Below are positions 6,031-11,600 of a DNA stretch of 37,797 nucleotides, piece after piece. The notes below the pieces were generated by a model that was not told the origin of the DNA, ran no database searches, and was given only the letters and a program-made list of their open reading frames with translations. Position 1 is the first letter of the stretch; each line of letters starts with the position of its first letter. The stretch is from contig JACPVQ010000079.1 in assembly GCA_016191645.1 (NCBI GenBank), positions 1 through 37,797 on the forward strand, written 5' to 3'. Position numbers and translations under genes: made by a program. The DNA comes from Candidatus Solibacter usitatus. GTDB lineage: Bacteria; Acidobacteriota; Terriglobia; Bryobacterales; Bryobacteraceae.

Positions 6031-7257
6031 TCAACGGGACACCTTTCGCAACAACCTCCGCTCACGGTGACGCAATTCAGGAGTGTCCGTCACGGCAATC
6101 GCTTGCCTGGTGAATTCCAATGCCATCGCGTGGTTGCGTTCCTTATGTTCGTAAAACTTTGCGAGCTCTTCGAAGGCGGCAACGCGGTGAGGATTCGGCG
6201 ACTGTGCGAGTTCCGTATACACGGCCAACGCATCGGGTTCACGGCCCAGCTTTCTCTCCAATTGCGCAATGTCCCACAGAGTGCGAAAAAGCACATCGTC
6301 GCGAAGCTTTCGCGTCAGGGCCTGACGCATCCAACCGAGCGCTTCCTCAAACCGTTCGCCTTTACGCAGCCACCGCGCCACGCCCACCATCTCGGCGCCA
6401 TGCGCGAAGCGCGCTTCGGACGGGTCTTTGAACGCATAAGGAACAATCCCCGTGAGGCAGGCGAGCGTTAGAATATCGATCGCGTTGTGATGGAAAACGG
6501 GGACGAGCCTCTCGATCTCACCCTTCCGCAAATAGTCGAAGTAGATATACGGAATCAATTCGCCCGGCACATCGCCTTCGCGCAGGACGCCGAGAATCTG
6601 ATATTCCAACTCCACCAGACGGCAGCTATCGACGCGCAGCTTCCACAACCTGCGCGCGCCATAGAGCAGATCCAGGTGAGCCATCCGCTCGAAGGGAGGC
6701 TTCATCCGCGACATGCGGAATCGCGTTTCCAGTAACGGCTGATCGAATGCCTTTCCGTTGTATGTCACCAGAACGTCGAATTGGCTCAGATCTTCGCAAA
6801 GCGCTTCCAGAGCACTCGACTCTTCTCCCGGCTCGCGCAGAAAATATTGCTTCACGCGGAAGCCTTGCGCCGTCGCATATCCGATGCCGATGAGAAATGC
6901 GTAAGTTCCCGTGCCTCCCGCAAGGCCCGTAGTCTCGGTGTCCAGATAGACCCAACGCGCCGGATCGGCGTTGGGCACAGTGCCCTCGGAAACGGCGTCC
7001 AGCAAATCCGCGGGCAGTTCGGCAAGCGTGGAAATATCCATGCTGCCGTGACGCCGGTGCCGTTCCCAAAAACGCGTCGTCTGATAGTGCTTGCCCGATT
7101 TCGTTGCGACTTCTTCCCCGCTGAGCCATTCTTCGACGTGAACGGTTTCCCGCGCCGGCCGCGGCGCAACCGTGCGCGGAGCGGCATCGGCGTACTTGCG
7201 GTCGATGCGCGCAATTCTCTGCCGGAGAAGATCGAGCTGTTGTTGCTGGCTATCCAC
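6031..7257 (-). CDS. YprB-like RNase H-fold 3'-5' exonuclease domain protein with C-terminal TPR-like region
   Basis: WVYLDTETTGLAGGTGTYAFLIGIGY, FDVLVTYNGKAFDQPLLETRF, VFHHNAIDILTLACL; C-terminal helical repeats. Confidence 0.8.
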   Translation of the reverse strand: MDSQQQQLDLLRQRIARIDRKYADAAPRTVAPRPARETVHVEEWLSGEEVATKSGKHYQTTRFWERHRRHGSMDISTLAELPADLLDAVSEGTVPNADPARWVYLDTETTGLAGGTGTYAFLIGIGYATAQGFRVKQYFLREPGEESSALEALCEDLSQFDVLVTYNGKAFDQPLLETRFRMSRMKPPFERMAHLDLLYGARRLWKLRVDSCRLVELEYQILGVLREGDVPGELIPYIYFDYLRKGEIERLVPVFHHNAIDILTLACLTGIVPYAFKDPSEARFAHGAEMVGVARWLRKGERFEEALGWMRQALTRKLRDDVLFRTLWDIAQLERKLGREPDALAVYTELAQSPNPHRVAAFEELAKFYEHKERNHAMALEFTRQAIAVTDTPELRHRERRLLRKVSR

Positions 7258-7273: not shown

Positions 7274-9013
7274 CTACTCTAACATGCCTGCGGGCCTGAC
7301 GTCCTTTAGCTGTACACTCCACGGCGAATAGCCGCGGGCCGCGGAATACTGATCTTCTTCGAAGGTCACGGCAACATCCACGCGAGCCCCGGGACGAAAC
7401 TCCTGCACGCGCTCTGCGAACCGCCACGCGGTTACGGACAATACGCGCCCGGCGCTGCGCAAGCGGATGCGCACATGCGGCTCTTTGAAAACGTTTGGCT
7501 CACCAACAACTTCCGCGTTGCGAATCAAAAAGACGGGATGTGGATTCCCGTTTCCGAAGGGGGCGAGCGAAAGAATCTCCGCTACGCTTTGGTCGTTCGC
7601 TTCGCTGAAGTCGGTTTCGGCATCTATCTCGAGGTGAGGCCGGAAATCTTCCGGGGTCAGACGCTGCGACGCGTAGAGTTTGAACTTCTCGCGAAACTCA
7701 TCGACGCGTTCCTTGTCCATGGAAAGACCCGCGGCCATGCGGTGTCCGCCGAAGCGGCGGAACAAAGCGGACATCGATTCGAGCGCGTCCAACAAGTGAA
7801 ATGGCGCGATGGTGCGTCCCGAACCTTGCGCCTGGCCCTCCTCCTGGCCCAACACAAAGACGGGCCGGCAGAATCGCTCCACCAGCCTGCTGGCCACAAT
7901 CCCGAGCACGCCGCGGTGCCAACCCTCGCCGCAAAACACGAGCGCGGCTTGATCGTCGGTAACCGGCGCGTCTTCGCACTCCTTGAGGATTTTCGCGACA
8001 ATGTCCGCTTCCGTTTGTTGCCGTTCCTGATTGAGATCGTTCAAGCGTTCGGCAATCTCCTTCGCCTCCGTATCCTCTGCCGTCAGAAACATGCGAATCA
8101 CATCTTCGGCGTGAGCCATGCGGCCCGCGGCGTTGATGCGCGGCGCGACGCGAAACGCCACGGAGCCCGCGCTGGGGACAGTACCCTCTTCAAATCCGGA
8201 GACCTTCATGATGGCGCGCAACCCCGGATTGTTGAGTTTCCGCAGCCCTTCCAAACCGTGTCTGACGATGATGCGATTCTCGCCTTGCAGCGGCACGACA
8301 TCGGCGACGGTGGCGAGTGCCGCGATCTTCATAAACGATTCTTCCACGCGGCGAGTCTTCTCCAGCGGCCATTCGAGCTCGCGCATCATCGCCTGCATCA
8401 GCTTGAAGGCAACTCCCGCGCCGCAGAGATTCTTGTCGGGATAAGGACAATCCCCACGATTGGGATTGAGTACGGCCAGCGCCGGAGGCAATTCTTCCTC
8501 GGGCAAATGATGATCTGTGATGATCACGTCCAGACCCAGTTTCGACGCCAGGCGAACCACCTCACCGGCCCGAATGCCGGTATCGACGCTGATGACAAGG
8601 GTGACTCCTTGGCGCGCCGCCTCTTCAATCACTTCGGGCCGCATTCCGTAACCGTCGCGCAGACGGTGGGGAACGTGAAATCGCGACTTGCCGCCCGCAA
8701 GTTCAATCGCCTTGGTGAGAATGACGATGGAGCAGGTGCCGTCCACGTCGTAGTCGCCGTAGAGAAGAATATTCTCCCCGCCGAGGATCGCCTTCTTCAG
8801 CCGCGCGGCGGCGGGCTTCATATCCGCAAGCCGGTAGGGGTCGAGTAAATCGCTCACTTCCGGGCGGAGAAAACGCCTTGCGGCTTCGGGATCGCCGTAG
8901 CCTCTGTGCACAAGGACGCGGGCGGCGGGCGGTTGAATGGATAGCGCGGCGCAGACCGCGGAGGCCGAGACGGCATCAGGCTCGGGAACCAGCCAGCGGG
9001 CGCGCTTGCGCAT
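7274..9013 (-). CDS. recJ: Single-stranded-DNA-specific exonuclease RecJ
   Basis: LLYGDYDVDGTCSIVILTKAI, VIITDHHLPEEELPPALAVLNP, GAGVAFKLMQAM, APRINAAGRMAHAEDVIRMFL, GEGWHRGVLGIVASRL, FGGHRMAAGLSM (DHH/DHHA1 motifs). Confidence 0.95.
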   Translation of the reverse strand: MRKRARWLVPEPDAVSASAVCAALSIQPPAARVLVHRGYGDPEAARRFLRPEVSDLLDPYRLADMKPAAARLKKAILGGENILLYGDYDVDGTCSIVILTKAIELAGGKSRFHVPHRLRDGYGMRPEVIEEAARQGVTLVISVDTGIRAGEVVRLASKLGLDVIITDHHLPEEELPPALAVLNPNRGDCPYPDKNLCGAGVAFKLMQAMMRELEWPLEKTRRVEESFMKIAALATVADVVPLQGENRIIVRHGLEGLRKLNNPGLRAIMKVSGFEEGTVPSAGSVAFRVAPRINAAGRMAHAEDVIRMFLTAEDTEAKEIAERLNDLNQERQQTEADIVAKILKECEDAPVTDDQAALVFCGEGWHRGVLGIVASRLVERFCRPVFVLGQEEGQAQGSGRTIAPFHLLDALESMSALFRRFGGHRMAAGLSMDKERVDEFREKFKLYASQRLTPEDFRPHLEIDAETDFSEANDQSVAEILSLAPFGNGNPHPVFLIRNAEVVGEPNVFKEPHVRIRLRSAGRVLSVTAWRFAERVQEFRPGARVDVAVTFEEDQYSAARGYSPWSVQLKDVRPAGMLE

Positions 9014-9018
9014 GGGAA

Positions 9019-9516
9019 TCAGTTGCGCGAGTAATAGCCGCCCATCGGCTCCGCGCCTTCTTCACCATCGCCCGAGAACGGATCCGGCATGTCGATGGTG
9101 TCCATGAGGTCCAATAATTCTTCGTACCACTTGGTTCGTAGATCGTAAACGTAGAAACGGTTGCCTACTTCAAACACGAGTTCCACGGCGCACGTAAATC
9201 CGTCGTAGGCGAAAAGCTCCTTGATCCGCCTGCCGACACTGCGCTGCTCGTCGAGCGGCATGTCGGATTCCTCCATGCTTTCCAGCGCATCTTCCGCCAT
9301 CGCCCGCTTGAATTCCTTGTGGTTGAAGATCATCAACTTCACGCCTGCCTGCACGGCGCAGTCGGCGAATTCTTTATAATCCGAATGCGAATCCACGTCC
9401 CAGAAGACCAGCCGTTGTTCGTGCAGTTCATTGACCAGTCCGCGAAAGACCGCCAGACCTTTTGCGCGCAAGTATTCGGGAATCTCCCGCGCTAATGCTT
9501 CCAGGTTTTTTGTCAT
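9019..9516 (-). CDS. Conserved-looking protein of unknown function (165 aa)
   Basis: Coherent ORF; its ATG overlaps the upstream aldehyde dehydrogenase stop by 4 nt, and it ends 5 nt before recJ. Family not recognised. Confidence 0.65.
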   Translation of the reverse strand: MTKNLEALAREIPEYLRAKGLAVFRGLVNELHEQRLVFWDVDSHSDYKEFADCAVQAGVKLMIFNHKEFKRAMAEDALESMEESDMPLDEQRSVGRRIKELFAYDGFTCAVELVFEVGNRFYVYDLRTKWYEELLDLMDTIDMPDPFSGDGEEGAEPMGGYYSRN

Positions 9517-11285
9517 GTGCGTTTGGCCAACACAAGAATGTCATGCGTGCCCGCAAGTTCGCGCGCGGACGGCGTGACAATACTCTTGGGTCCGATGAAA
9601 ATCTTTTTCGATTCGCGCAACGCGACGCGGACGTCGTGTTCGCAAACAAAATCGGCGATCGCCACGGGCGGGGCGGGCGGGGTTGGCTGTGGAGCCGCAA
9701 GAGTTGGCGCGGCCGCCGGCAGCGGCAGAGAACATCCGCAACTCGCATCGGCAGCGCCCGCGGTCTTGCGCGAATCCAAAAAGCGGTCCACAACATTGGT
9801 CGCCACCGAGTGAGAGTTTGGCCCAACCACGCCCTTCTTTTGGAGGAACTTCTCCACCGCGGCGGAGATGGCTTCCTTCCCCGGCGCCGCCACCGATTCT
9901 AACGCCGCGGGCGCGGATTCAAACGCGTCCTCCGCTTTGCGCACGACGTAGGCGATGCGTTTCGTGTTGAACAGATGCTGCGGGCCAACATTGTCCGATG
10001 TAATGTTGCCGGCAATCGCACCGCAGCCCAATGTCATGGATGGCTGCACGTCCGTTGTGATTCCCGTCGACCCCTGCGGCGCCGGCGTGCTGACCAACAC
10101 GCGGAAGGCCGGCATGCGCTTCCCGTATTCCAGAATGCGGTGATCGTCCTTGGCGTGGATCACGCAAGTGTGGCCTAGTCCGCCGAAGCGCAAAATCCCT
10201 TCACAGGCATCCATCGCCGCGGCGAAGTCTTTCACAAAATAGAGTGCCAGTACGGGCGACAGTTTCTCCGCCGACAGCGGATGCTGCCTTCCCACGCCGT
10301 GAATCTCCACGGCAAGAATGGAAGCGTCGGCGGGCACTTCGAATCCGGCTTTCTTCGCCACCGTTTGCGGCGATTGCCCGACGCAATCGGCGTTGACAAT
10401 CAGTTTGTCGTTCAGCAACACGCGGGCCAGCGCCGCGCCTTGTTCCTCCGTGCATAGATACGCCTTGCGGGCTTTCAGCTCCGCAAGGATTCTCTCGCGC
10501 AGAGAACTGGCGGCGACAATCGTTTGCTCGCTGGAACACACCGTTCCGAAATCGAACGACTTGCCTTCCACAACTTTGCCGACGGCCTCCGCCAAGTCGG
10601 CGGATTCGTCGATCAGTACGGGTACATTCCCCGGCCCGACGCCGTAGGCGGGCTTGCCGCTGGAATAGGCGGCCCTGACCATGGCGCTGCCGCCGGTGGC
10701 GAGAATGACGCTCACCTTGGGATGGCGCATCAGAGCGTTTGTGCCTTCCAGCGTCGCATTGTTGATGCATTGAATCAGATCGGGCGGCGCGCCCGCCGCA
10801 ATGGAGGCGCGATGCATCAGGTCGATGGTCGCGCATGTGCAGCCCTTTGCGCGCGGGTGCGGACTGTGCACGACGGCATTGCCTGACTTCAGCGAAACGA
10901 TAGTCTTGTAAATTGCCGTTGAGGTTGGATTGGTGGTCGGGAGCACTGCGGCGACCACGCCAACAGGCTCGGCGATCTCGATGATCTTTCGTTCTTTGTC
11001 TTCGCGCAGGACGCCGATGGTTCTCATCCCACGGATGCGGCGCGGCAATATATCGGAACAGAGCAGATTCTTCGCGGTCTTGCCTTCGACGGTGCCGTAT
11101 CCCGTCTCGCGCACGGCCATTTCCGCCAAAGCCTTCGCCTGCGATCGCGCGGCCGCCGCCATCGCTTCGACAATCGCGTCCACTTGCTCCTGCGAATATT
11201 TGCGGTACTCCTGGAACGCCGCATGGGCCTTTTCGACCTTCGTGCGGACCTCTTGTACCGATACCAGGTCCGAATCCTGCAACAT
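9513..11285 (-). CDS. BMC-associated CoA-acylating aldehyde dehydrogenase (EutE/PduP/AdhE-N type) with C-terminal EutQ/EutT-like appendage
   Basis: EPVGVVAAVLPTTNPTSTAIYKTIVSLKSGNAVVHSPHPRAK; catalytic Cys context SFDFGTVCSSEQTIVA; GSTGITTDVQPSMTLGCGA; then a helix (KEAISAAVEKFLQKKGVVG), a Pro/Ala linker and DFVCEHDVRVALRESKKIFIGPKSIVTPSARELAGTHDI. A BMC-H gene lies directly upstream. Confidence 0.9.
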   Translation of the reverse strand: MLQDSDLVSVQEVRTKVEKAHAAFQEYRKYSQEQVDAIVEAMAAAARSQAKALAEMAVRETGYGTVEGKTAKNLLCSDILPRRIRGMRTIGVLREDKERKIIEIAEPVGVVAAVLPTTNPTSTAIYKTIVSLKSGNAVVHSPHPRAKGCTCATIDLMHRASIAAGAPPDLIQCINNATLEGTNALMRHPKVSVILATGGSAMVRAAYSSGKPAYGVGPGNVPVLIDESADLAEAVGKVVEGKSFDFGTVCSSEQTIVAASSLRERILAELKARKAYLCTEEQGAALARVLLNDKLIVNADCVGQSPQTVAKKAGFEVPADASILAVEIHGVGRQHPLSAEKLSPVLALYFVKDFAAAMDACEGILRFGGLGHTCVIHAKDDHRILEYGKRMPAFRVLVSTPAPQGSTGITTDVQPSMTLGCGAIAGNITSDNVGPQHLFNTKRIAYVVRKAEDAFESAPAALESVAAPGKEAISAAVEKFLQKKGVVGPNSHSVATNVVDRFLDSRKTAGAADASCGCSLPLPAAAPTLAAPQPTPPAPPVAIADFVCEHDVRVALRESKKIFIGPKSIVTPSARELAGTHDILVLAKRT

Positions 11286-11303
11286 GTGTGCTATTGAGTG
11301 CGG

Positions 11304-11600
11304 CTACGAAATCGACTTGTCGTTGCTCTTCTTTGCGCCGGGAAGAATTTTCTCGACCTCTTCATGAGGATTGGGAATCACGTGCACGGAAACCAATTCA
11401 CCAACGCGCCGTGCGGCGGCGGCGCCGGCGTCCGTGGCCGCTTTTACCGCGCCCACATCACCCCTCACCGTGACCGTGACATAGCCCGCGCCGATGAATT
11501 CCTTACCGGTGAGGACTACGTTTGCCGTCTTGACCATCGCATCGGAGGCTTCAATCGCTCCAATGAGACCTTTGGTCTCCACCATTCCAAGGGCTTCCAT
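11304..11600 (-). CDS. Bacterial microcompartment shell protein, single BMC domain (BMC-H)
   Basis: [87 protein letters not shown] is a canonical BMC-H sequence. Purine-rich RBS upstream (GGAAGAGG). Confidence 0.96.

Follow-up and report, generated by a model that had tools for sequence, protein, structure and literature searches.

A BMC-H shell gene and an aldehyde dehydrogenase gene near recJ as a probable satellite locus of an aldolase-type Acidobacteriota microcompartment

The window analysed here, a stretch of 37,797 nucleotides from an assembly of Candidatus Solibacter usitatus, carries an apparently orphan microcompartment (BMC) shell gene followed by genes for an aldehyde dehydrogenase, a protein of 165 amino acids that we call U165, and RecJ. 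Our comparison of sequences across related genomes indicates, with a probability of about 0.85, that the BMC-H gene and the dehydrogenase gene belong as a satellite locus to a catabolic, aldolase-type microcompartment found in Acidobacteriota, and that U165 is separate from this compartment and linked to recJ through an old gene neighbourhood. The compartment probably breaks down a sugar phosphate. The shell gene would thus belong to a catalogued microcompartment of abundant soil bacteria, to which the literature that we found assigns no function.

The gene run and its tailed dehydrogenase

Five genes lie head to tail on the minus strand in the order BMC-H, dehydrogenase, U165, recJ and RNase_H_2 gene, with the following features.

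11304-11600, minus strand: BMC-H shell protein, satellite copy; 98 aa from the ATG, PF00936 (E 5.9e-27), EutM-like
9513-11285, minus strand: CoA-acylating aldehyde dehydrogenase, putative cargo enzyme; 590 aa, PF00171 (E 5.4e-31), TIGR02518 (549 bits)
9831-9878, minus strand: dehydrogenase tail, candidate encapsulation-peptide-like helix 1 (KEAISAAVEKFLQKKG), residues about 470-485; suggested by position and a repeated [AV]V[DE]xFL-like pattern in relatives
9765-9809, minus strand: dehydrogenase tail, candidate encapsulation-peptide-like helix 2 (SVATNVVDRFLDSRK), residues about 493-507; suggested by a conserved VVDRFL
9516-9650, minus strand: conserved C-terminal module of the dehydrogenase (FVCExDVRxA...KIxIGPKxIVTPSAR); nine invariant positions in 19 sequences
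9019-9516, minus strand: U165, recJ-linked protein of 165 aa; alpha/beta domain, acidic linker and conserved C-terminal end (GGYFSRN-like)
7274-9013, minus strand: recJ, single-strand-specific DNA exonuclease; TIGR00644 (521 bits, above the cut-off)
6031-7257, minus strand: RNase_H_2 (YprB-like) exonuclease-domain protein with a TPR-like C-terminus, last gene of the run; PF13482 (E 6e-37)

The order and the gaps given in the sequence-only reading (18 nt between BMC-H and the dehydrogenase, a 4-nt ATGA overlap between the dehydrogenase and U165, and 5 nt between U165 and recJ) were borne out by gene calls and profiles. The RNase_H_2 gene is also found 3' of recJ in G001, a relative without BMC genes, and on reading, the neighbouring genes are ordinary chromosomal ones (ribosomal proteins, ileS, lspA and lgt). 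A profile search of the whole assembly placed no second PF00936 gene, and no PF03319 or PduL (PF06130) gene, in the window.

The best NCBIfam model for the shell protein is EutM, at 126 bits slightly below the cut-off of 133 bits. The gene is 96% identical to those at the equivalent position in G007 and G002, and the satellite BMC-H is a paralog distinct from the BMC-H of the main locus described below, with about 65-76% identity between the two.

The dehydrogenase has the catalytic cysteine and the full-length EutE/AdhE-type domain expected of a CoA-acylating aldehyde dehydrogenase. Cys250, in the motif TVCSSEQ, is invariant in 19 relatives, and the best model, TIGR02518 for CoA-acylating acetaldehyde dehydrogenase, covers 466 of 488 positions with a score under its cut-off of 620 bits. 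The closest solved structure is an acetylating acetaldehyde dehydrogenase (PDB 5j78), and the nearest named relatives come from Acidobacteria MAGs, several of them labelled Bryobacterales and one Candidatus Sulfopaludibacter (Solibacteraceae, Terriglobia). Compared with EutE-type enzymes, the catalytic domain (residues 1-458) is the same, but the protein adds a tail of about 130 residues that contains the two helix motifs and the conserved C-terminal module. The VVDRFL of helix 2 is kept in most of the 19 relatives, with F502 invariant. The module is common to all Acidobacteria satellite dehydrogenases aligned (F546, V547, E549, D551, A555, T571, P572, A574 and R575 are invariant in 19 sequences); it gave no Pfam match and only chance matches in the PDB. 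Judged by pattern and position, the tail is consistent with cargo targeting. For the putative targeting helices, hydrophobic moments came out low, as they did for a PduP reference helix, and this measure is uninformative.

The main locus in relatives and the type of compartment

We examined the window's own assembly (G000) and 60 relatives. PF00936 was present in 53 of these 61 genomes and PF03319 in 47, nearly always in three copies. The relatives have a stable main locus that consists of a class II aldolase (PF00596, E 5.5e-49), a BMC-H and three consecutive BMC-P genes, read in G002-G004, G007, G008, G010, G011, G013, G015, G040, G057, G059, G076, G099 and others, and a separate tandem BMC-T is frequent. 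Past a linker, the C-terminus of the aldolase is a conserved, helix-like segment, VTREELIALVDEALRxRG, that by its pattern and position resembles an encapsulation peptide. A class II aldolase in G019, a genome without BMC genes, stops right before this supposed helix (L246, 7061-7753).

In those relatives whose loci we read, the BMC-H/dehydrogenase pair and the main locus stand apart; the distance from the dehydrogenase to the nearest main-locus gene is about 3 kb in G015 and about 12 kb in G013. With only PF00936 in the window and a main locus of both shell-protein kinds in relatives, the arrangement fits a satellite locus as defined by Axen et al. (2014) and Sutter et al. (2021), with shell genes of a single kind (PF00936 or PF03319) at a distance from a main locus carrying both. 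The satellite interpretation offered in the sequence-only reading therefore holds, since in relatives the aldolase lies elsewhere, together with another BMC-H and three BMC-P genes. The other interpretation offered there, a reduced assembly, is not supported for the class in general, in which 106 of 112 BMC-bearing genomes have BMC-H and BMC-P together; for the window's own species, it keeps a minor probability.

The pairing itself is highly conserved. A BMC-H gene lies immediately upstream of the dehydrogenase gene in every Acidobacteria locus read that reaches far enough. The full order BMC-H/dehydrogenase/U165/recJ was found in 33 of 33 BMC-bearing genomes examined from the window's family (f1), far beyond chance, and also in four BMC-bearing genomes of f11, another family of the class (G130, G195, G270 and G312), and the conservation across Acidobacteria that the first reading had proposed to test is present. 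In G026, the satellite BMC-H appears frame-broken (L124, 10440-10674); this genome additionally holds another BMC gene set that differs from the first (L125, L126).

Natural deletions separate the genes of the run. G001 is 98% complete and has no BMC genes, and its aldolase still lies beside the divergent rhomboid gene found at the edge of the main locus in G003, G008, G010 and G011. The shell genes after this aldolase are gone and its C-terminal helix has diverged. At the satellite site, the BMC-H and dehydrogenase genes are gone while U165, recJ and the RNase_H_2 gene are retained. This genome thus shows which genes go with the compartment and which stay: the BMC-H/dehydrogenase pair was lost together with the main shell, and U165 was not.

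Fucose-rhamnose microcompartments of the PVM/GRM5 type have a phosphotransacylase and compact loci. They resemble the system proposed here in pairing, within a shell, a class II aldolase with a CoA-acylating aldehyde dehydrogenase that takes up its aldehyde product, but here the dehydrogenase is on a satellite, and PduL (PF06130), which belongs to the PVM core, was found in 0 of 41 genomes by a profile search in which positive controls were detected. PduL is thereby rejected as the recycler of CoA, and its absence means that CoA is recycled by another route or that the acyl-CoA is exported.

According to Sutter et al. (2021, PMC8217296), the main locus of the ACI type of Acidobacteria comprises a class II aldolase with a C-terminal targeting helix, a BMC-P triplet and a BMC-H, and its aldehyde dehydrogenase is encoded on a satellite. 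The description of this type draws for the most part on subdivisions 4 and 6 rather than on Bryobacterales, and its gene list includes a hydroxyacid dehydrogenase (PF00389/PF02826). Our system has the same PF00596 aldolase with a C-terminal encapsulation-like tail and the same BMC-P triplet, both known from relatives only, as well as at least one BMC-H and a dehydrogenase on the satellite. A possible difference is the hydroxyacid dehydrogenase, which was not noticed by eye beside the main loci of G007, G013, G015, G040 and G059, and the window's own main locus is missing from its assembly. Loci of Candidatus Solibacter usitatus, of the same order (Bryobacterales), with a class II aldolase and, in one case, a PVM-like ratio of BMC-P to BMC-H have been called PVM-like (Axen et al. 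2014, PMC4207490); this is an earlier and broader class. The system is therefore already catalogued, since the ACI type has the same division of labour and the S. usitatus loci are listed as PVM-like. We did not find the recJ neighbourhood or the absence of PduL in the literature describing ACI or PVM-like loci.

In a working scheme for the compartment, the C-terminal helix would direct the aldolase into the shell, where the enzyme would cleave a sugar 1-phosphate to dihydroxyacetone phosphate and an aldehyde, for which lactaldehyde, acetaldehyde or a similar compound are candidates. The dehydrogenase, targeted by its tail helices, would oxidise the aldehyde with NAD and CoA to the acyl-CoA, and the satellite BMC-H may add extra or differently gated facets to the shell.

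The main locus and the window's own assembly

The window's assembly (G000) spans 4.47 Mb and is 79% complete. A search of it for the remaining shell genes and a signature enzyme, as proposed in the sequence-only reading, was only partly successful: a tandem BMC-T on contig C161 is the sole other PF00936 gene, and no BMC-P (PF03319), aldolase or main BMC-H was found in the whole assembly. For this reason, we infer the partner locus of the window's species from its relatives.

A simple assembly gap at the ancestral place is excluded. In G002, a methyltransferase gene comes immediately after the BMC-P triplet; its counterpart in G000, 76% identical, lies in mid-contig (G000:C51:4906-5514) with its usual next neighbour present, and an unrelated ORF of 209 aa occupies the site where the triplet would be expected (L268, 4906-6153). 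The rhomboid flank gene stands alone on contig C198. The ancestral site thus does not hold the main locus, which has been either deleted or moved to the fifth of the genome that the assembly lacks.

If it was deleted, the BMC-H, BMC-T and dehydrogenase would persist as a pentamer-less assembly for aldehyde handling, in the form of a sheet, a tube or an open shell. Both the lack of BMC-P and aldolase in G000 and the methyltransferase flank without its triplet are in line with such a loss, as is the congener G006, which is 99% complete and has the same set, with satellite and BMC-T kept and BMC-P and aldolase undetected. The BMC-H and dehydrogenase of the window also evolve no faster than the copies of congeners, so their rate is not relaxed, which speaks for the main reading as well. 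However, G000 is only 79% complete, and it is rare for BMC genes to occur without BMC-P: of the 112 BMC-bearing genomes in the class sample, 6 show this, 5 of them below 90% completeness. The surroundings of the main locus also differ among congeners (beside mreB in G007, without the rhomboid gene in G002), so it may simply have moved. We therefore regard incompleteness or relocation as more likely and a real loss in the window's species as rather unlikely. That the remnant of BMC-H, tandem BMC-T and tailed dehydrogenase still works as an open, pentamer-less assembly in this species, and possibly in G006, is a shade less probable again. Should the loss be real, this lineage would offer a natural experiment on whether BMC-H, BMC-T and cargo still serve a purpose when pentamers are absent.

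U165 and the recJ neighbourhood

The first reading had put U165 forward as a candidate new BMC-associated factor. Its position speaks for such a role: in all BMC-bearing genomes examined from the family, its gene is placed between those for the dehydrogenase and RecJ, and in the window it overlaps the dehydrogenase gene. However, its distribution contradicts the proposal. U165 was found in 61 of 67 genomes sampled from the window's family, whether BMC genes were present or not, and in 299 genomes of the class we counted 46 with both, 92 with U165 only, 66 with BMC genes only and 95 with neither. There is no positive association (odds ratio 0.72, Fisher P 0.19, where P is only a guide because the genomes are related). 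U165 was not found in family f3 even though this family has microcompartment genes. In BMC-less loci, it lies directly before recJ in 8 of 8 cases in f1 and 10 of 10 in f11. Homologs next to recJ where BMC genes are missing are what the first reading had named as grounds for dropping the BMC link. U165 is also kept beside recJ after loss of the compartment, and we consider a microcompartment accessory role very improbable. The false lead gives way to a class-wide recJ neighbour of no known family.

Our leading guess, drawn from the gene neighbourhood, is instead a dedicated role for U165 with RecJ or in the processing of single-stranded DNA, as either a partner or a regulator; its acidic linker and conserved end could dock a partner. 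We give this somewhat less than an even chance. U165 is directly upstream of recJ in the BMC-less loci counted above and in the satellite loci that we read in BMC-bearing genomes of f1 and f11, and its linker is accompanied by residues S163 and N165 that are invariant in 30 sequences. On the other hand, neighbourhood is what ties it to RecJ, and this varies: among the loci read, those of f6, f7 and f12 have no recJ next to U165, and in the f3 genomes G044 and G047, recJ is at the equivalent place without U165. The GGYFSRN-like end is conserved in f1, f4 and f12 but missing in f11. Structure prediction, also suggested in the first reading, gave an alpha/beta domain of good confidence (AlphaFold, pLDDT 86.8, pTM 0.75), but this model had no PDB or viral match below E 0.001. 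At the sequence level, there was no Pfam or NCBIfam match (for several homologs, no Pfam match even at E 1), and the best PDB match had an E of 1.2.

The run could also be read as a purposeful coupling of aldehyde metabolism to DNA repair, with RecJ repairing aldehyde damage. Families f1, f3 (G044, G047), f4 and f11 do have the BMC-H/dehydrogenase pair beside recJ, whether or not U165 is there. However, G040, G041, G058 and G059 keep the pair at a site away from recJ and U165, recJ and U165 persist without the pair, and a conserved neighbourhood can simply be inherited, all of which makes a purposeful coupling hardly credible. We favour an old neighbourhood from which the BMC genes were probably lost repeatedly, since BMC-bearing f11 genomes show the full order and BMC-less f1 and f11 loci keep U165 with recJ. 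In G261, a U165 homolog that is not beside recJ carries a fused C-terminal region weakly resembling a helix-turn-helix (sigma-70 region 4, E 0.008; L229, 4589-5359).
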